A stretch of 56,998 bases of DNA from the NCBI GenBank assembly GCA_027020665.1, contig JALUVJ010000094.1, positions 1 through 56,998 of the forward strand. Reading direction: 5' to 3'. The DNA is from Nitrospira sp. Lineage in GTDB: Bacteria; Nitrospirota; Nitrospiria; SBBL01; JAADHI01. The first letter of the stretch is position 1, and the number at the start of each line of letters is the position of its first letter. The notes under the pieces are model-generated. The model did not search any database. It worked only from the letters and a program-made list of their open reading frames with translations, and was not told the origin of the DNA. Both the position numbers and the translations under genes were made by a program. Of the stretch, positions 7,279 to 41,968 are shown one piece after another.

Positions 7279-7404
7279 TGAAACCGTCAAGTCGCCTGAA
7301 GGACACGGCCTTATCGGCCATTTTGGCGACCGGGGCCCACTTACCTGTACGGTGAGGCGTAAAATGACCGGTAACGCAGTATAAGCAGGCGAACCGGCGG
7401 TTTC
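7279..7404 (+). other. Intergenic stretch with possible RNA structure
   Basis: Between comM and the glycosidase-like gene. GTCGCC (7291-7296) pairs with GGCGAC (7325-7330) around an inner GGCC/GGCC hairpin (7307-7319), followed by a second arm set with ACCGGT and ACCGGC. I match it to no riboswitch family I know. It could be a leader RNA of the gene at 7522, or chance. Confidence 0.3.
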
Positions 7405-7429
7405 AAATTCCGCGATCGCGGAATTTGGG
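7404..7429. repeat. Perfect palindrome, variant of the dispersed element (copy 3)
   Basis: Positions 7405-7426 are a perfect 22-bp inverted repeat (half-site AAATTCCGCGA), with GGG following as in other copies. Read on the minus strand it begins CCCAAATTCCGCGAT, matching the left part of copy 1 at 249. It lies 96 bp upstream of the gene at 7522. Confidence 0.7.
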
Positions 7430-9816: not shown

Positions 9817-9851
9817 TTTCACTTCCCCCTTTTTCAAAGGGGGAAGTGAAA
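9817..9851. repeat. Perfect 16-bp-stem hairpin
   Basis: Arm TTTCACTTCCCCCTTT (9817-9832), loop TTC, exact inverted copy at 9836-9851. No T-run follows, so it is not a typical intrinsic terminator. C5T3/A3G5 hairpins of this kind recur in many bacterial genomes as intergenic repeats; from memory only, not checked here. Confidence 0.75.
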
Positions 9852-15550: not shown

Positions 15551-15678
15551 CAATGTAGCAGACAAAATGCCAAAACAGGCTATCTTCATCTTCCAAAAAA
15601 AGACGGCTTGAAAAAGAAGAAACAATATGGAAAACAAACACGCCGTGCGCAGCCCTGTTTTTATCTGAGGAAACATTG

Positions 15679-16785
15679 ATGCATACGATTGCGTCTAATA
15701 AACTCGCACAACTTTTCATCCTGCTGAAAAAGCAAGGGTATGCCGTTATCGCACCCGCGCTTCGTGATGCGGCCATCATTTATGACGAAGTGGAAACACC
15801 CTCGGATCTTCCTGTGGGATGGACAGACGCGCAATCGCCCGGAAGTTACCGTCTCAAAAAAAGGGAAGATGATGCCTATTTCGGCTATGCCGTCGGCCCG
15901 CATTCGTGGAAAAAAGTCGTGCTGCCGCCCCGCATGAAATTATGGGCGGCCCGGCGCGAGGAAAAGGGTTTCACCATTTCGGATACGACAGAAGCACCGC
16001 GCAAACTTGCGTTAATCGGCGTGCGGGCCTGCGAACTGTATGCGATGGCCATTCAAGACACGGTTTTTATTAAAGGAGATTACGTTGATCCTTTTTATAA
16101 GGCACAGCGTGAAAAGCTGTTTATCGTGGCTGTGAATTGTGCGCAGGCAGCGGAAACCTGTTTCTGCGTCTCCATGAAAACCGGGCCGAAAGCAGAGACA
16201 GCTTACGACCTTGCGCTCACAGAAGTCATTGAAAATAAGCGGCATTATTTTGTCGCAGAAGCAGGATCACGCCGGGGCGCAGCCGTTTTGGCCGCCCTTT
16301 CCACCGCAATCGCGCGCCCTGCTGAAAAAACGGCGGCCCGGCAGGTCATTCGAAAAACCGCGGCAAGCATCAAACGCACACTCGACACGGATGGCCTCAA
16401 AACCCTGCTCTATGAAAACCTGGCGCATCCCCGCTGGAATGACGTGGCGGAACGCTGTTTGACCTGTGGCAATTGCACGATGGTCTGCCCCACCTGTTTT
16501 TGCACGACGGTCGAAGAAATCACGGATCTCACTGGAGATCATTCGGAGCACTGGCGGCGCTGGGATTCCTGTTTCACGATGGATTTTTCCTTCATCCACG
16601 GCGAAGGCAGTGTGCGCAGCTCCAATAAAAGCCGGTATCGCCAGTGGATGACACACAAACTTGCAAGCTGGCACGATCAGTTCGGCAGCTCCGGTTGTGT
16701 GGGCTGTGGCCGCTGCATCACCTGGTGTCCGCCGGGCATCGACATTACCGAAGAAGTCAAGGCCATCCGGAAGAACCCCGCATGA
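15679..16785 (+). CDS. hydB: Group 3b-type [NiFe] hydrogenase, Fe-S beta subunit
   Basis: A 368-residue protein matching the beta subunit of sulfhydrogenase-type, NAD(P)-linked bidirectional [NiFe] hydrogenases. Two ferredoxin-like Fe-S cluster motifs are visible near the C-terminus: CLTCGNCTMVCPTCFC at about residues 258-273 and CVGCGRCITWCPPG at about 339-352. It should relay electrons between the small subunit and the flavin subunit in the cytosol. The ATG at 15679 follows GAGGAAACATTG; a TTG lies directly before it. The stop overlaps the ATG of hydG (ATGA), so the subunits are translated together. Confidence 0.9.
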   Translation: MHTIASNKLAQLFILLKKQGYAVIAPALRDAAIIYDEVETPSDLPVGWTDAQSPGSYRLKKREDDAYFGYAVGPHSWKKVVLPPRMKLWAARREEKGFTISDTTEAPRKLALIGVRACELYAMAIQDTVFIKGDYVDPFYKAQREKLFIVAVNCAQAAETCFCVSMKTGPKAETAYDLALTEVIENKRHYFVAEAGSRRGAAVLAALSTAIARPAEKTAARQVIRKTAASIKRTLDTDGLKTLLYENLAHPRWNDVAERCLTCGNCTMVCPTCFCTTVEEITDLTGDHSEHWRRWDSCFTMDFSFIHGEGSVRSSNKSRYRQWMTHKLASWHDQFGSSGCVGCGRCITWCPPGIDITEEVKAIRKNPA

Positions 16786-17681
16786 ATCAGCCGTCCGACA
16801 TCGGAGCGGGTTTCATGCCCGCCCCTCCCCGCAATCCGCCCGCTGGCGCGACATCCCCCTATTTGCCTTATCCTGCGGAAATTGTTGAAAAACGCCTGGA
16901 GTCCCGCGGGGTCTACACCTTCCGGCTGCGTTTTTTGGATGAAGTGCGGCACAAAAACTACGACTTCCGGCCCGGTCAATTCAACATGCTCTATATTTTC
17001 GGCGTGGGCGAAGTGGCGATTTCCATCGTCTCCGATCCGGAAATCGGCGAAACCTTGGATCACACCGTGCGCATTGTCGGTAACGTGACGGAAGCCTTGA
17101 ACCGGCTGGATGTCGGGGATGTCATCGGCATTCGCGGGCCCTACGGCAGCGCCTGGCCGCTGGAAGCGGCCAAAGGAAAAGACGTGATCATTCTCACGGG
17201 CGGTTTGGGTTGCGCACCCGTCGTTTCCGTCATCAACTACATCACAGCGCGGCGTGATGATTACGGGGCGCTCAAAATCTTTCACGGCGTGAAAACCCCC
17301 AAAGACCTGCTCTACCGCGAACGCATCCGGGCCTGGCAGAAGGATGCGCGCACGGAAGTTTACCTGACCGTCGATCACCCCGACCACGCATGGCAATACA
17401 GCGTCGGCATCGTCACCAATCTCTTCACGCAGATACAGTTGGATCTTTCAAACAGCATCGTCATGATGTGCGGACCCGGCATCATGATGCACCACGCCGT
17501 GCGGGATTTATGTTCACGCGGCATGCGGATGGATCAGCTTTATGTCTCACTGGAGCGCAACATGAAATGCGCCCTGGGTTTTTGCGGCCACTGCCAGATG
17601 GGGCCTAATTTTCTCTGTAAGGAGGGGCCGATTTTTCGCTACGACCGGATTCGGCACTGGTTTGAAACACCGGCAATTTGA
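16782..17681 (+). CDS. hydG: Group 3b-type [NiFe] hydrogenase, FAD/NAD(P)-binding gamma subunit
   Basis: A 299-residue flavoprotein of the ferredoxin-NADP reductase fold. It shows an FAD site ([11 protein letters not shown]), a nucleotide-binding loop ([16 protein letters not shown]) and a C-terminal [2Fe-2S]-type cysteine cluster [17 protein letters not shown] at about residues 266-282, as in dihydroorotate dehydrogenase electron-transfer subunits. It should exchange electrons with NAD(P)H. The start ATG at 16782 overlaps the hydB TGA. Its own TGA overlaps the hydD ATG. The first 30 residues are Pro/Gly-rich and non-conserved. Confidence 0.9.
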
Positions 17682-18463
17682 TGAATCAAAAAACCGCAAA
17701 ACCCACACTCGCAGTCTTCAAATTTGCCTCTTGCGATGGTTGTCAGTTGACCCTGCTCAATTGCGAAGACGCCCTCTTGCCTCTTGCCGACGAAATTGAA
17801 ATTGCCCATTTTTTGGAGGCCTCGAGCGCCGTTTTGCCCGGCCCCTACGATGTGACGCTGGTCGAAGGCTCAATCACCACGCCGCACGACGCACAACGCA
17901 TTCAAGAAATCCGCAAGCAAAGCAAGAAACTCATTTCCATCGGGGCCTGCGCGACCGCCGGCGGCATTCAGGCCCTGAGAAATTTTAAAAACGTGGACGA
18001 CTTTATTTCCGTCGTGTATGCCCAGCCCGGCTACATCGATACGCTCGCGACCGCAACGGCCATCAGCGAACACGTGCGCGTGGATTTTGAACTGCGCGGC
18101 TGTCCCATCGACCAAAAGCAAGTGATCGAAGTCCTCACCGCCCTGCTTCAGGGACGCAGGCCCGACATCCCCTCACACAGCCTTTGTGTCGATTGCAAAC
18201 AACGCGGCCTCGTCTGCGTCACGGTGGCGCAAGGCACGGCCTGTCTCGGCCCGGTCACGCATGCCGGATGCGGCGTGCTTTGCCCGGCCTGCGAGCGGGG
18301 CTGTTACGGCTGCTTCGGCCCGATGGAAACGCCGAATACACGCGCGCTGCGGACGACATGGGCGCGACGGGGCATGACGGATGCCGAAATTTCTCAGGCC
18401 TTCAAGGGCATCAACGCCAACGCCCCGGCCTTTCGAAAGGAACATGATGCACCAAAGCGATGA
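17681..18463 (+). CDS. hydD: Group 3b-type [NiFe] hydrogenase small (delta) subunit
   Basis: A 260-residue Fe-S subunit. The proximal cluster motif [19 protein letters not shown] is at about residues 9-27, with later ligands in [10 protein letters not shown], and a Cys-rich C-terminal region ([26 protein letters not shown]) can hold the medial and distal clusters. There is no Tat signal peptide, so the enzyme is cytosolic, as expected for group 3. A TTG lies just before the chosen ATG. It overlaps the start of hydA by about 17 bp. Confidence 0.92.
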
Positions 18464-19751
18464 CAATCGGTCGATCGAAGTCGGCGCGCTCGCACGGGTT
18501 GAAGGCGAGGGCGGGCTCGACGTGAAAATCAAAAAGGGCCGAGTCACCGAAGTCAAGCTGCGTATTTTTGAACCGCCGCGTTTTTTCGAGGCTTTTTTGC
18601 TGGAGCGCGATTTTACCGAGGCCCCGGACATTACCGCGCGCATCTGCGGCATCTGTCCCGTTGCTTATCAAATGAGCGCCAGTCACGCGATGGAAGATGC
18701 CTGCGGCATCAAAGTCGAAGGCGCGCTGCGCGATCTGCGGCGCATGATTTATTGCGGCGAATGGATCGAAAGCCACGCCCTGCATGTCTACATGCTGCAC
18801 GCGCCCGATTTTTTAGGCTACGAAAGCGGTATCCAGATGGCGAAAGACTTCCCCGATATTGTCGAACGGGGCCTGCGTCTTAAAAAAATCGGCAACGCCC
18901 TCATGACCCTTTTGGGCGGGCGTTCCGTGCATCCCGTGAATCTGCGGCTGGGCGGTTTTTACCGTGTGCCCGCCCGTGCGCAAATGCAGGCACTGAAAGC
19001 GGATTTGGAATGGGCGAAAGACGCCGCCCTTCAAACCGTGCAATGGACGGCGGCCTTTGATTTCCCGGATTTTGAACAGGATTACACCTTTGTCTCCCTG
19101 CGCCATCCGGAGGAATACCCCATCAACGCAGGCCGCATTGTTTCAAACAAGGGACTGGACATAGCCGTTCGCGAATACACAGAACATTTTACCGAAGAAC
19201 ACATCGCCCACAGCACGGCGCTGCATTCCCGTCTTGAAGGGGAGACGCTTTATTTTGCGGGACCGATGGCGCGCTACAATCTGAATTTCGACCGGCTGCC
19301 CGCTGCGGTTCAAAGCGCCGCCGAGGCCGCCGGGCTGGGGCCTGTGTGCCGAAATCCCTTTCAGGGCATCATCGTGCGCAGTCTGGAAATCCTGTACGCC
19401 TGCGAAGAAGCACTCCGCGTACTCGAAAACTATGTGCCGCCGGATGTGCCCGCCGTCGCGGTCGTGCCGCGGTCCGCGACGGGCCACGGCTGCACGGAAG
19501 CGCCGCGCGGCCTGCTGTATCATCGTTACGACATTGACGAAAACGGAAAAATTCACAGTGCGAAAATCGTCCCGCCCACGTCCCAAAATCAACGCGTTAT
19601 CGAAAATGACCTCTACCGGCTCATCCCGCAATACATTGATTTTCCGAAAAAAGCGCTGAAACACCGCTGCGAACAGGCCATCCGTAACTACGATCCCTGT
19701 ATCTCCTGCTCCACTCATTTTTTAGATCTTCGGATCAAAGAAGAGGATTAA
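18447..19751 (+). CDS. hydA: Group 3b-type [NiFe] hydrogenase large (alpha) subunit
   Basis: A 434-residue catalytic subunit. Both Ni-Fe ligand pairs are present: RICGIC near the N-terminus (about residues 62-67) and DPCISC near the C-terminus. The protein ends [13 protein letters not shown], so a maturation endopeptidase is expected to cut after the His of the CxxCxxH-like end and release about ten residues. Two start codons lie close together (18444 and 18447); 18447 has the better distance from AAAGGA. The next gene begins 3 bp after the stop and encodes the matching endopeptidase as part of a fusion. Confidence 0.93.
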
Positions 19752-19754
19752 AGC

Positions 19755-22526
19755 GTGCCGCACGCGCAGAGGGCCGATATCCGCGTCATCGGCATCGGCA
19801 ACCCCTTTCGGCGGGATGACGGTGCGGGCATTGAAGTTGCGCGGCGTTTGAAGGCGCGGCTTTCTCCGGGTATTACGGTCATCGAGCAAAGCGGAGAAGC
19901 CGCCGCCTTGATGGATGCCTGGCAAGGGGCCGAAACCGTGATCCTGATCGATGCGCTTGTTTCCGGCGCAGCGCCCGGCGCGCTGCGGTGCATTGACCTT
20001 CGGACGGAGAAACTCCCGGCCGGACTGTGCCGCGCTTCGAGCCACGCCTTGGGTGTGGCAGAGGCCGTCGCGCTGGCCCGGCAATTCAAGCAGCTTCCCG
20101 CCCGGCCCGTGCTGATCGGGATTGAAGGACAGGATTTTTCCGAGGGGACGGAATTTTCCGGGGCGGTCGCAGGGGCGATTGAAAATGCCGTCCGCTTGGC
20201 AATCGATACGGCCGGGCTTCAAGATCTTGAAGCCCGGCAACACAAAACCCAGCCGCAAAGCCTGCGAATTGTGGTTGAAGGCACGGTGCAGGGCGTTGGC
20301 TTCCGCCCCTTTGTGTACCGTTTGGCGCGCTCGCTTGACCTGAAGGGCTGGGTTGAAAACAGTCCGAAAGGTGTATTGATTGCAGCCGAAGGCAGTCCCG
20401 GCCGCCTCGATATCCTGCTCAAACGCATCCGGCGGGACGCCCCGGTGCACAGTGTCATCACAGGCATCACAAGCACCGCGCTGAAAACACAGGGGGGGCC
20501 GGATTTTGAAATCCGTCAAAGCAAAGTTTCCGGGAATAAACAAACCGGCGTCCTGCCGGATATCGCCCCCTGCAACGCCTGTCTTCAGGAATTGTTTGAT
20601 CCCCGAAACCGGCGGTACCGCTATCCCTTTATCAACTGCACGCACTGCGGGCCGCGTTTTTCCATCACCGAAGCCCTTCCCTATGACCGCGCGCGGACCA
20701 GCATGAGCCCCTTTACACTGTGCGCGGCCTGCCGCGCGGAATATCATGATCCGAATGACCGGCGTTTTCATGCCCAAGCAAATGCCTGTGCGGACTGCGG
20801 GCCGCAACCGGCCTACCTGGGGCCCGACGGGAAACCGCAATCAACAAACGAAACCGCCCTGCGTGATACCGCCGCAGCACTCCGGGCCGGGCATATTGTC
20901 GCGGTGAAGGGCATCGGCGGGTTTCATCTCATGGCGGACGCGCGAAACGAAGGGGCCGTCCTGCGCTTGCGAGAAAGAAAGAAGCGGCCCGCAAAACCTT
21001 TCGCGCTGATGTACCCGGCGTTGAAAGCTGTGTATCGCGATTGCATCGTTTCCCGGGCCGAAACGGCGCTGCTCGGCGCGCCTGCAGCTCCCCTCGTCCT
21101 GCTCCGGCGGCAAACAAGTGCCCGCATCGCGCCCGCCGTTGCGCCGGATAACCCGGACTTGGGCGTCATGCTGCCTGCTTCTCCTTTGCACCACCTGCTC
21201 ATGCGGGCACTTGGATTTCCGCTCGTCGCCACCAGTGCGAACCGTTCGGGTGAACCGATTTGCGCAAACGAGGCAGACGCGCGGAAGCGTCTCAAAGGGA
21301 TTGCAGACGGTTTTCTCATCCACAATCGCGCCATTGTCCGGCCCTTGGATGATTCGGTGCTGCGGGTCACGGCAGGCCAAACCGCGGTGCTGCGCCGCGG
21401 GCGTGGGCTGCCGCTGCTTTCGCTTCCGCTGAATGTGCCTTGCCCGCCCCTCCTGGCCGTGGGCGGGCACTTGAAAAACACCATTGCCCTGACACACGGA
21501 CGGCACATCCTCCTCAGCCCTCACATCGGCGATCTGGAATCGGCCGCCGCGATTCAACGCCGGGATCACACGATTGAAGCCCTGCAAGGTCTCCACGGCA
21601 CGCAGGCCCGCCATATTGCCTGCGACGCCCATCCCGATTATGCTTCAAGTCAATGCGCGGCCCGGCAGGGCCTGCCCCTGACACCGGTTCAGCACCACCA
21701 CGCGCACGTCGCCGCCTGCATGGCCGAGCACGGCTTAAAGGGCGAGGTCTTCGGCATTGCCTGGGACGGTGCCGGCTTCGGTCCGGACGGCACGGTGTGG
21801 GGCGGAGAATTTCTGCGGGCTTCCGCGCGATCGTTTGAACGCTTGGCCTTCCTGCGGCCCTTCCGGCTGCCGGGCGGCGAATCGGCCCAGCGCGAACCCC
21901 GGCGCGCCGCGCTGGGCTTGCTTTACGAATTGTACGGGGACAAGCTTTTTGAAACGGCCCGCTTCGCCCCGCTTGCGGCGTGTTCCTCCGCTGAAAAAAA
22001 GATCCTTCAAAGCATGCTTAAGCGAGGGATCAATGCCCCCTACACATCCGGCATGGGACGGCTTTTTGATGCGATTGCATCGCTATCGGGACTTCGGCAG
22101 GGGCCCTGTTTCGAGGGAGAGGCCGCGATGGCACTCGAATTCGCCGCCCGGAAGACCGCCGCCGAAAACCCGGATGAATCCTACGCCTTCGATCTCCGGC
22201 CCGGAATGCCTTGTTGTGTCGATTGGGCGCCCATGCTGCACGGAATCCTGCGCAATATGGAAGATGCCGTCCCGGTCAGCCGCATTGCTAAAAAATTTCA
22301 CCGCAGCCTGCTTGACATCATGGTGGCACTTGCGCGACGCTTTGCCGAAAACCGCATCGTGCTCACCGGCGGTTGTTTTCAAAACCGCATCTTATTGGAA
22401 CAGGGGGTTGCACGCCTGCGTGAAGCGGGTTTTGAAGTCTACTGGCCCCAGCAGGCTCCCCCCAATGACGGTGGCATTGCCTTGGGACAGGCCTTTGTCG
22501 CGGCGCAGCAACTCGGAGCAAAATAG
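19755..22526 (+). CDS. hypF: Hydrogenase maturation endopeptidase-HypF fusion
   Basis: A 923-residue protein joining two maturation enzymes. Residues about 9-155 are an M52/HycI-type endopeptidase: IGIGNPFRRDDGAG, LIDAL and SSHALG supply the nickel-binding Asp21, Asp66 and His97. After a short linker (about 156-168), residues about 169-923 are a complete HypF: acylphosphatase (VEGTVQGVGFRPFVYRLA), two zinc fingers (C273/C276/C295/C298 and C323/C326/C345/C348), a YrdC-like domain and a Kae1-like carbamoyltransferase with HHHAHVAACMAEH. HypF makes the cyanide-ligand precursor from carbamoyl phosphate; the peptidase trims the large subunit last. The reading frame is unbroken. The start is GTG, and hypC follows 2 bp after the stop. 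Confidence 0.92.
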   Translation: MPHAQRADIRVIGIGNPFRRDDGAGIEVARRLKARLSPGITVIEQSGEAAALMDAWQGAETVILIDALVSGAAPGALRCIDLRTEKLPAGLCRASSHALGVAEAVALARQFKQLPARPVLIGIEGQDFSEGTEFSGAVAGAIENAVRLAIDTAGLQDLEARQHKTQPQSLRIVVEGTVQGVGFRPFVYRLARSLDLKGWVENSPKGVLIAAEGSPGRLDILLKRIRRDAPVHSVITGITSTALKTQGGPDFEIRQSKVSGNKQTGVLPDIAPCNACLQELFDPRNRRYRYPFINCTHCGPRFSITEALPYDRARTSMSPFTLCAACRAEYHDPNDRRFHAQANACADCGPQPAYLGPDGKPQSTNETALRDTAAALRAGHIVAVKGIGGFHLMADARNEGAVLRLRERKKRPAKPFALMYPALKAVYRDCIVSRAETALLGAPAAPLVLLRRQTSARIAPAVAPDNPDLGVMLPASPLHHLLMRALGFPLVATSANRSGEPICANEADARKRLKGIADGFLIHNRAIVRPLDDSVLRVTAGQTAVLRRGRGLPLLSLPLNVPCPPLLAVGGHLKNTIALTHGRHILLSPHIGDLESAAAIQRRDHTIEALQGLHGTQARHIACDAHPDYASSQCAARQGLPLTPVQHHHAHVAACMAEHGLKGEVFGIAWDGAGFGPDGTVWGGEFLRASARSFERLAFLRPFRLPGGESAQREPRRAALGLLYELYGDKLFETARFAPLAACSSAEKKILQSMLKRGINAPYTSGMGRLFDAIASLSGLRQGPCFEGEAAMALEFAARKTAAENPDESYAFDLRPGMPCCVDWAPMLHGILRNMEDAVPVSRIAKKFHRSLLDIMVALARRFAENRIVLTGGCFQNRILLEQGVARLREAGFEVYWPQQAPPNDGGIALGQAFVAAQQLGAK

Positions 22527-22528
22527 GC

Positions 22529-22771
22529 ATGTGTCTCGCCGTTCCCGGCAAAATCGTTTCCGTTTCGACACCTGAAGCTTCGCCGCTGCAACGGACGGGG
22601 CAAGTGAGCTTCGGAGGCATTTTAAAAGAAATCTCGCTCGCCTTCGTGCCGGAGGCCGAGGCCGGCGACTACATCATCGCCCACGCCGGTGTCGCTATCA
22701 GCCGTGTCGATGAAGCGGAAGCCCGTCGCAACTTTGAATACTTGAGGGAGATTGACGAAAGGGGTATGTAG
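22529..22771 (+). CDS. hypC: Hydrogenase assembly chaperone HypC
   Basis: An 80-residue protein beginning MCLAVPGKIV, the invariant HypC/HybG N-terminus in which Cys2 carries the Fe(CN)2CO unit together with HypD. The C-terminal part GDYIIAHAGVAIS is also typical. It lies between the peptidase-HypF fusion and hypD in the same operon, so it likely serves this hydrogenase. Confidence 0.95.
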   Translation: MCLAVPGKIVSVSTPEASPLQRTGQVSFGGILKEISLAFVPEAEAGDYIIAHAGVAISRVDEAEARRNFEYLREIDERGM

Positions 22772-22818
22772 GGCTTTAAAATTCCGAAGCCCTACAGCAG
22801 AACATCCGATACGATCTT

Positions 22819-23898
22819 ATGAAATACATCGACGAATACCGCGACGCGAAGATCGCAAAAAAGCTGGTGCAGGCGATTGAACACCAAATCACCCGGCCTT
22901 GGACGATCATGGAAGTCTGCGGCGGGCAGACCCATGCCATTGTGAAATACGGCATCGATGCCTTGCTGCCCAAAGAAATCACGCTTCTGCACGGACCGGG
23001 CTGTCCGGTGTGCGTTACGCCGATTGAACTGATTGACAAGGCCGTGGAAATCGCTGCAGAGCCGGAGGTTACATTCTGCTCTTTCGGCGACATGCTGCGC
23101 GTGCCCGGAAGCCGGCACGATTTGTTTTGGGCCAAGTCTCAGGGCGGCGATGTGCGTATCGTCTACTCGCCTTTGGATGCGCTCAAATTCGCGCAGGAGC
23201 ATCCGGATCGCGAAGTCGTCTTTTTTGCCGTGGGTTTTGAAACGACGGCCCCGGCCAATGCCATGGTCGTCGCCGAAGCGCGGCGCCGGGCGGTCAAGAA
23301 TTTTTCCATTCTCGTTTCACACGTGCTCGTGCCGCCTGCGATTGAGGCCATTCTGTCCGTGCCGGAAAATCGTGTGGACGGCTTTCTCGCGGCGGGACAT
23401 GTCTGCACGATCATGGGTTTTGAGGAATATGAGCCCCTCGTCAAAAAATACGGCGTGCCCATGGTGGTCACGGGTTTTGAACCGCTCGATATCCTGCAAG
23501 GCATCAAAATGTGCCTGCGGCAACTGGAAGCAGGCCGCGCCGCAGTCGAAAACCAGTATGTGCGCTCGGTCAAAAAAACAGGCAACCTTCCGGCACGTGC
23601 GCTGCTTGAAGCCGTGTTTGAGATCGTGCCGCGACAATGGCGCGGTATCGGAGAAATTCCAAAAAGCGGCTTTGCTTTACGGGAGCCGTATCAATCCTTC
23701 GATGCCGAGCGGCGTTTCGGCGCGGCGGATGCCGTGGAAAATGCCGAAACCGGATGTATCAGCGGCCTGATTTTGCAAGGCTTGAAAAAACCGAATGCCT
23801 GTCCGCATTTCGGAACAACCTGCACCCCGGAGCACCCGCTCGGCGCAACCATGGTCAGCAGCGAAGGGGCCTGTGCGGCCTATTGGCGATATCGGTGA
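22819..23898 (+). CDS. hypD: Hydrogenase maturation protein HypD
   Basis: A 359-residue scaffold protein for assembling the Fe(CN)2CO group with HypC and HypE. Family signatures are visible: [17 protein letters not shown] near residues 31-47, [13 protein letters not shown] near 55-67 and a [4Fe-4S]-type cysteine set toward the C-terminus ([15 protein letters not shown]). It starts at ATG 22819. hypE, hypA and hypB do not follow; the next gene is proS on the other strand, so those genes must lie elsewhere in the genome. Confidence 0.95.
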
Positions 23899-26474: not shown

Positions 26475-27818
26475 GGATAGTGTCCCTATACTGCTGTAAA
26501 TTTTAAGGAGCCATCGGGGTTCCCGACTCCGTAAGATTGGTGTTTGCGACATCAACCTTAAAAGGAGGAGAACCCACGATGGCTGACTATGAGATTAACG
26601 TTTCCGAGGCCCTTTTGTCTAACTTGATGACGGAGCAGCACGGCTTGGCGCAACTGCTGGAATCCGTATTAAATCAGATCTTGGAAGCCCAGGCCTCCGA
26701 GCAAATCGGCGCTGAGCGGTATGAGCGATCCGAAGCGCGGACCGCTTACCGTAACGGCATGCGCATGAGACAACGACTCTTCAAGTCCCGCAATTCCGGG
26801 ACGGATCGTTTTCAACGGAGATTTTTTCTCGATACCAGCGCTCGGAGCAGGCCTTCGTGCTGGCGCTGATGGAGATGGTGGTGAACGGCGTCTCAAGCCG
26901 CAAAGTCACGCGGATTACGGAAGAGCTGTGCGGGGCGTCCTTTTCGAAATCCACGGTCAGCCGGTTGTGCACCGTGCTGGACGCACGCGTGCGGGCGTTT
27001 AACGAAAGACCCTTGGGATCGTTCCCCTTTCTGATCGTGGACGCCATGTACATCAAGGTGCGAGAGAACGACGCCGTCGTCTCGAAGGCGGCCCTGCTCA
27101 TGTCCGGCGTGAATGCGGCGGGAAGCCGCGAAATCCTGGGCGTGAAGGTTGGAGACAGCGAATCGTCTGCCTTTTGGTTGGACGCCTTTCGTTGGCTCAA
27201 AGACCGGGGCTTAAAAGGCGTCTCGGTCATTGTTTCAGACGATCACAACGGTCTGACGCAGGCTGCGGCCCGCTGTTTTCAAGGGGCCATCTGGCAGCGC
27301 TGCCAGGTGCATTTTACGCGCAACGTCTTGTCGCACACGGCGTCACGGCACAAAAAGGCGATGGCGGAAGGGCTCAAATCCATCCTCAACGCCGAGCGTG
27401 CCGAAGACGCCCGAAAGCGCTTTGAAACCTTTGGAGAAGCAATGGGGGACACCGCGAAAAAGGCGATGCATTGCCTTGAAGCCGGCTTGGAGGACGCCCT
27501 GGCCGTGATGGCCCTGCCTTCAAAATACCGAAAGAGATTGAAGTCGACCAACATGCAGGAGCGGCTGATTCAGGAAGTGCGGCGGCGGGAGCGCGTGATT
27601 CGTATCTTTCCGAACGAGGCCGCGGCACAACGGCTCATCGGCGCGCTCCTGGCCGAAATCCACGAAGACTGGCAGGCCCGCTGTTATTTGGACATGACGG
27701 AATTCAACGAATGGAAAGCGGAACAAAAAAACAAAAAGGACAAAACCCTTGTTCAAATAAAATGAAGCCCAAACCCGTCCTTACGGAGCCAAATTTACAG
27801 CAACTTCGGGACTTGACC
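26475..27818 (+). mobile_element. IS256-family (Mutator-type) insertion sequence, 1344 bp
   Basis: The ends are imperfect inverted repeats: the left end starts GGATAGTGTCCC and runs to GCTGTAAATTT; the right end read inward starts GGTCAAGTCCC and runs to GCTGTAAATTT. The element is flanked by the 8-bp duplication CTCTGGAG (26467-26474 and 27819-27826), as expected for IS256 transposition. It carries one transposase gene broken by a frameshift, so this copy is probably immobile without help. It interrupts the membrane-protein gene. The nearly intact duplication and host gene suggest a fairly recent insertion. Confidence 0.92.
26579..27765 (+). pseudogene. IS256-family transposase, frameshifted
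   Basis: The ATG at 26579 follows a very strong SD (AAAGGAGGAG). The N-terminal part (MADYEINVSEALL to RNGMRMRQR) is in one frame to about 26775. The reading then continues in another frame from 26776 (TLQVPQFRDGSFSTEI, then YQRSEQAFVLALMEM) to 27765. Compared with the family, about eight codons around the usual LTTRVG stretch are missing with a net frame change. DDE-type features of the family are present in the second part: FLIVDAMYIKVRE (Asp), VSVIVSDDHNGL (Asp) and WQRCQVHFTRNV, and a likely Glu near NMQERLIQEVRRRERV. As it stands no full transposase is made. Confidence 0.85.
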
Positions 27819-41938: not shown

Positions 41939-41968
41939 GTCCTTGATGCCCGTACGGGCATCAAGGAC
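41939..41968. terminator. Strong hairpin between DUF3105 and lnt
   Basis: GTCCTTGATGCCC and GGGCATCAAGGAC around GTAC, a perfect 13-bp stem 6 bp after the DUF3105 stop. No T-run follows, so it may be an attenuating or RNA-stabilising hairpin rather than a strong terminator. It ends 12 bp before the lnt GTG and could mask that start. Confidence 0.6.

Follow-up and report, generated by a model that had tools for sequence, protein, structure and literature searches.

At positions 19755-22526 of the window (the whole stretch of 56,998 nucleotides that was analysed), a hycI-type protease gene and hypF are read as one uninterrupted frame within a hydrogenase-maturation operon, both domains being intact. 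This raises the question whether two maturation enzymes are indeed made as a single polypeptide and, if so, what their union means for the pathway. The frame, on the forward strand, consists of 923 codons, starts with GTG, and contains no internal stop. The sample is one draft metagenome-assembled genome (MAG) of one strain. The features of the locus, in window coordinates, are as follows:

15676-16785, + strand: HydB/ShyB-like Fe-S subunit (Fer4_22, 119 bits; sulfhyd_HydB, 162.6 bits, below the equivalog cut-off of 750)
16644-17681, + strand: HydG/ShyC-like NAD(P)-flavin subunit (NAD_binding_1, DHODB_Fe-S_bind, FAD_binding_6; PRK08345, 218 bits); the listed ORF is extended at its start, with the true start probably near 16782
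17678-18463, + strand: HydD/ShyD-like small subunit (Oxidored_q6, 82 bits; sulfhyd_ShyD, 149.5 bits)
18381-19751, + strand: HydA/ShyA-like [NiFe] large subunit, ORF extended at its start (NiFeSe_Hases; sulfhyd_ShyA, 267 bits)
19755-22526, + strand: fused maturation protein of 923 amino acids, HycI/HybD-type protease plus HypF (ORF, Pfam, NCBIfam, AlphaFold2, Foldseek)
19779-20210, + strand: protease domain, residues 9-152, ligand positions Asp22, Asp66, and His97 (TIGR00072 at 11-151; alignments to 1cfz and 5ija)
20211-20258, + strand: linker, about residues 153-168, no in-frame ATG, GTG, or TTG (sequence; AlphaFold2)
20211-20238, no strand: 28-bp perfect palindrome GCCGGGCTTCAAGATCTTGAAGCCCGGC at the domain junction (palindrome scan)
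20259-22523, + strand: HypF part, residues 169-923, with acylphosphatase, two zinc fingers, YrdC-like, and Kae1-like domains (TIGR00143; alignment to 3vth; Foldseek)
22529-22771, + strand: HypC, 80 amino acids, beginning MCLAVPG, Cys2 present (HupF_HypC, 80 bits)
22819-23898, + strand: HypD, 359 amino acids (HypD, 514 bits)

The Pfam domains of the ORF occur in the order HycI (26-151), acylphosphatase (171-253), two zf-HYPF, YrdC-like (375-549), HypF_C (564-658), and HypF_C_2 (667-912). A chance frame is of no concern, since each half gives a full-length match to a curated family. An AlphaFold2 model of the 923-residue chain, built from aligned relatives with and without the fusion, had a mean pLDDT of 92 and a pTM of 0.83, and its top Foldseek matches were HypF crystal structures (3vth, TMt 0.95). 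Judged from its sequence, the chain is a complete M52 protease plus a complete HypF in one polypeptide. The first-pass annotation had proposed that the last-acting and first-acting maturation enzymes are joined in an unbroken frame, with a short linker and no stop; the Pfam-type domain search found both families in the one ORF, as full-length domains with their catalytic residues present, and the linker measures about 16 residues.

According to profile searches, residues 9-152 represent a full HycI/HybD-type (M52) maturation protease, with matches to PF01750 (HycI; 47.8 bits, cut-off 23) and, at residues 11-151, to TIGR00072 (109.6 bits, cut-off 47.45; model positions 2-143 of 145). The domain had been placed at about residues 9-155; its completeness stands, and its end is set here at residue 152. 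The metal ligands Glu16, Asp62, and His93 of Escherichia coli HybD (1cfz) align to Asp22, Asp66, and His97 of the fusion. Hence, Asp66 and His97 were rightly named as ligands before, whereas Asp21, a residue that is invariant among the aligned homologues, was off by one. The full-length domain and the aligned ligands are shared with the HycI/HybD endopeptidases (MEROPS M52; 1cfz, 5ija), and the protease part is predicted to be a nickel-dependent endopeptidase of this type. HycI and HybD are normally stand-alone proteins of about 150-165 amino acids, whereas here the protease forms the N-terminal part of a 923-residue chain. As in HycI/HybD systems, the neighbouring gene encodes a large subunit whose tail can be cleaved. 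Indeed, the fusion starts at 19755, on the same strand as the large-subunit gene that ends at 19751, in agreement with the earlier reading that it directly follows the gene whose tail it should cut. The last 19 residues of the large subunit comprise a DPCxxCxx[HR] motif and a C-terminal extension; such a processing tail should need a protease, and the HydA/ShyA-like C-terminus is the predicted substrate of the protease in the fusion. Cleavage by HycI/HybD-family enzymes normally takes place just after the His or Arg of this motif, which would give a tail of 10 residues instead of the 13 residues given earlier.

The HypF part is likewise complete, as had been claimed for about residues 169-923. 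TIGR00143 (hypF) matched residues 172-916 with 781.7 bits (cut-off 466.1) over model positions 1-740 of 741, the solved HypF structure 3vth aligned over residues 165-918, and HypF profile matches together spanned residues 169-921, starting at about residue 169. Every domain of the HypF carbamoyltransferases (TIGR00143; 3vth, 3tsp, 4g9i) is present in order, the zinc-finger cysteines and the HHHAH motif are kept, and identity to the unfused HypF proteins compared was 37-58%. Unlike a stand-alone HypF, this part lacks its own start codon and is placed after the protease and the linker of about 16 residues. An internal HypF start was considered and rejected: the linker has none, and the closest GTG, at residue 173, is already within the acylphosphatase domain, in its first strand. 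HypF should therefore be produced only within the fusion.

Upstream of the fusion, on the same strand, the operon has four genes for an NAD(P)-type [NiFe] hydrogenase. Their order is HydB, HydG, HydD, HydA, with the subunit types of an NADP-type sulfhydrogenase (Hyd/Shy), so that a group 3b-like enzyme is a candidate assignment. The best NCBIfam matches for most of the hydrogenase subunits were Hyd/Shy models, all below the equivalog cut-offs, in which respect the subunits of the window differ from the Hyd and Shy sulfhydrogenases proper; a further difference is that maturation genes belong to the operon here. Indeed, hypC starts 3 bases past the end of the fusion, followed by hypD. Elsewhere in the window (26537-27765), the frame of a Mutator-type transposase appears to be split into two overlapping ORFs.

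In the rest of the draft genome (2.68 Mb, about 92% complete), neither a second HycI nor a second full HypF was found. Both functions must therefore come from the fusion, provided that the assembly is right. HypE is encoded on another contig (C81:43384-44382; 448.5 bits) and ends in LPRIC, with the required C-terminal Cys. The genome thus has hypC, hypD, hypE, and hypF but falls short of a complete hypABCDEF set: in the same draft, no PF01155 match (HypA) and no true HypB were found, the best HypB-like match (80 bits, cut-off 121) being UreG, adjoining urease genes. With no HypA or HypB found, the gene set does not account for nickel insertion, and maturation of the hydrogenase might depart from the usual way.

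Relatives carry the two genes separately. A close match to the protease domain occurred in 25 of 57 other genomes, the nearest of which share the genus and the most distant only the class; in all 25, the hycI frame was too short to hold HypF, and hypF was a separate neighbouring ORF in each of the 19 loci read. In one genome of the same genus (G003), hycI and hypF overlap by ATGA. In several relatives of the order and class (L072, L073, L074, L075, L077, and L079), a small HypA-like gene, encoding about 87 amino acids and starting MHE, lies between hycI and hypF; in the three proteins tested, the match to Pfam HypA does not extend beyond its positions 1-70, and the zinc-binding domain is missing. 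At one further locus (L076, 4184-4330; genome G032), HypF seems to open in frame with approximately the first 20 residues of a HypA-like protein, and this locus carries short RPLI[DG]AVQ repeats. At L073 (genome G017), HypF is broken over three frames, suggesting an indel-rich assembly.

A census of about 1,500 genomes, comprising 296 from the phylum of the window itself, 399 from that of Methyloversatilis (G069), 397 from that of Actinoplanes (G064), and 395 from that of G061, yielded fusion rates that are lower bounds, being counted among the matches listed. The search for this architecture elsewhere gave at least three further unbroken fusions (L051, L052, and L053); each is a single ORF of 918-922 amino acids that contains every HycI and HypF Pfam domain, in the same domain order as in the window. 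Among the matches listed, at least two (L051 and L052) belong to the 397 genomes of the phylum of Actinoplanes and at least one (L053) to the 395 of the phylum of G061; none was found in the 399 genomes of the phylum of Methyloversatilis, and no other HycI in a frame exceeding 401 amino acids was found in the 296 genomes of the own phylum. In at least eight more genomes, hycI and hypF share one frame, parted by one or two stop codons. Several candidates were rejected: 'full-length' tblastn matches in Actinoplanes, Anaerosolibacter, Clostridiaceae, and plasmids were separate neighbouring ORFs or annotated genes where visible, and no HycI match was found inside the HypF frames of L035 and L040, nor in very long HypF frames (1009-1274 amino acids; G515, G827, G749, and G908). 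A fixed, well-known annotation in many genomes, which the first-pass annotation had named as grounds for abandoning its reading, is not what was found; the architecture occurs at a rate of at least 0-2 per approximately 400 genomes among the matches listed in each of the other phyla searched, and no description of a HycI-HypF fusion was found in the open-access literature. Chains with this architecture may well be recorded in databases already.

In a HypF tree of 43 rows, the fused proteins fell in three places, requiring a minimum of three changes of state, and a single clade of all fused rows was rejected (p-AU 7.7e-8), and with it one ancient fusion shared by all. This tree implies at least three independent origins of the HycI-HypF fusion, with L051/L052, L053, and the window on separate branches. 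At the two loci checked (L051 and L053), the fusion lies in a hydrogenase operon with hypD downstream, as in the window. Unlike the window, L051 and L052 keep a GTG or ATG near the HypF start, and the L051 fusion accompanies a different hydrogenase, beside RnfC/RnfD-like genes. The neighbourhood of the latter (L051, 1171-8612; genome G903) is unusual, the fusion lying downstream of a [NiFe] large subunit and of RnfC/NuoF-like and RnfD-like genes.

At the junction itself, AlphaFold2 confidence drops below that of the rest of the chain (pLDDT near 73 at about residues 153-167), and the palindrome sits exactly at the start of the linker. In RNA it would pair into a 12-bp hairpin closed by a GAUC loop (region -34 kcal/mol, z -3.8). 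The palindrome does not look like a dispersed repeat, since the genome has just one copy even when up to 3 mismatches are allowed. Other long perfect palindromes of the window lie between the longer ORFs (7404-7427 and 41939-41968), as does a hairpin at 9817-9851; the 24-bp palindrome at 7404 recurs without change on a different contig of the genome (L048), and another perfect or near-perfect long palindrome lies at a gene border (22771-22792). In L077, palindromes at 161-188 (before hydB) and 1419-1446 (at the hydB-hydG border) have a core similar to that of the palindrome at 20211, with GGGNTTCNANATNTNGAANCCC in common. Because of its resemblance to gene-border hairpins in the window and in L077, the palindrome makes the linker look like former intercistronic DNA that is now translated.

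The likely explanation is an operon fusion of adjacent genes, giving a 1:1 bifunctional maturase of which the domains do their usual jobs independently. The gene would be translated into one bifunctional protein, the HypF part of which would carbamoylate HypE for cyanide synthesis on HypC-HypD, whereas the protease part would later cut the 10-residue tail off the adjacent large subunit, with nickel already in place. Acting independently at different steps, the two domains would gain equal production and co-localisation from the join. As to its origin, a hypA between hycI and hypF, as in order and class relatives, was probably lost first, followed by loss of the hycI stop and the hypF start between the now adjacent genes, which would have left a linker made of the hycI tail and the intercistronic hairpin. 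Such a fusion with co-production fits better than channelling, because of the short intercistronic-like linker, the unfused neighbours in relatives, and the independent fusions near different hydrogenases.

It is unlikely that an assembly or sequencing error, with a base lost or gained in the linker, masks the ordinary stop of hycI and start of hypF. This reading would accord with the origin of the window in a single draft MAG of 196 contigs, with separate genes in a sister species at a 1-base frame offset that one indel could mimic, with the perfect palindrome at the junction, and with a start/stop-like TTGA overlap at 20227-20230, although the latter lies outside the needed frames. However, two indels would be needed to recreate the TTGA arrangement, the neighbouring operon genes are unbroken, in contrast to the error-prone assembly of G017 with its HypF in three frames, the gene order at the junction is collinear with that of relatives, and the same fusion arose independently in other genomes.

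Rather improbable is a functional scaffold, in which tethering to HypF, and thereby to the HypE-HypF complex, would let the protease link tail removal with the assembly of the cofactor. Selection could lie behind the three or more recurrences of the fusion; of the four fused genes, two (window and L053) directly follow a large-subunit gene, and these same two have linkers without a start codon, so that the chain should be obligate. However, HypF acts first, carbamoylating HypE, the Fe(CN)2CO group is then assembled on HypCD, nickel is added next, and the protease comes last, nickel insertion falling between Fe(CN)2CO transfer and proteolysis (2025 review, PMC12134894). With HypCD-based assembly, delivery to the large subunit, and the insertion of nickel intervening, the two fused activities are not consecutive. 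In addition, HypF does not bind HypCDE stably in vitro (PMC12134894), the linker is short and of lower confidence in the AlphaFold2 model, and unfused genes are far commoner. The earlier proposal that the join couples cyanide synthesis to final processing on one scaffold is not retained, given the non-consecutive steps, the intercistronic-like linker, and the unfused relatives. It is very unlikely that selection tethered the protease to HypF convergently, as a bifunctional maturase forming a physical Hyp assembly line that works without HypA and HypB. The least probable reading, one ORF that yields two proteins, either because the linker is cleaved or because the mRNA is processed at the hairpin, would suit the position of this perfect hairpin exactly at the junction and the similar hairpins at gene borders, but the linker offers no in-frame start codon for translation of HypF after mRNA processing and no known protease site.

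As an operon fusion, the 923-residue chain would not amount to a new system but to known enzymes packaged in an unusual manner, and such joins are rare. Enzymes from opposite ends of the [NiFe]-cofactor pathway share one chain, repeatedly and independently, which suggests that both tolerate or gain from 1:1 production. For recombinant maturation, one such gene might serve in place of two. Furthermore, missing or mismatched proteases have been noted for the group 3b hydrogenases of Nitrospirales (PMC12342949). The fusion may bear on these odd maturation inventories, since a protease hidden inside hypF could escape annotation.
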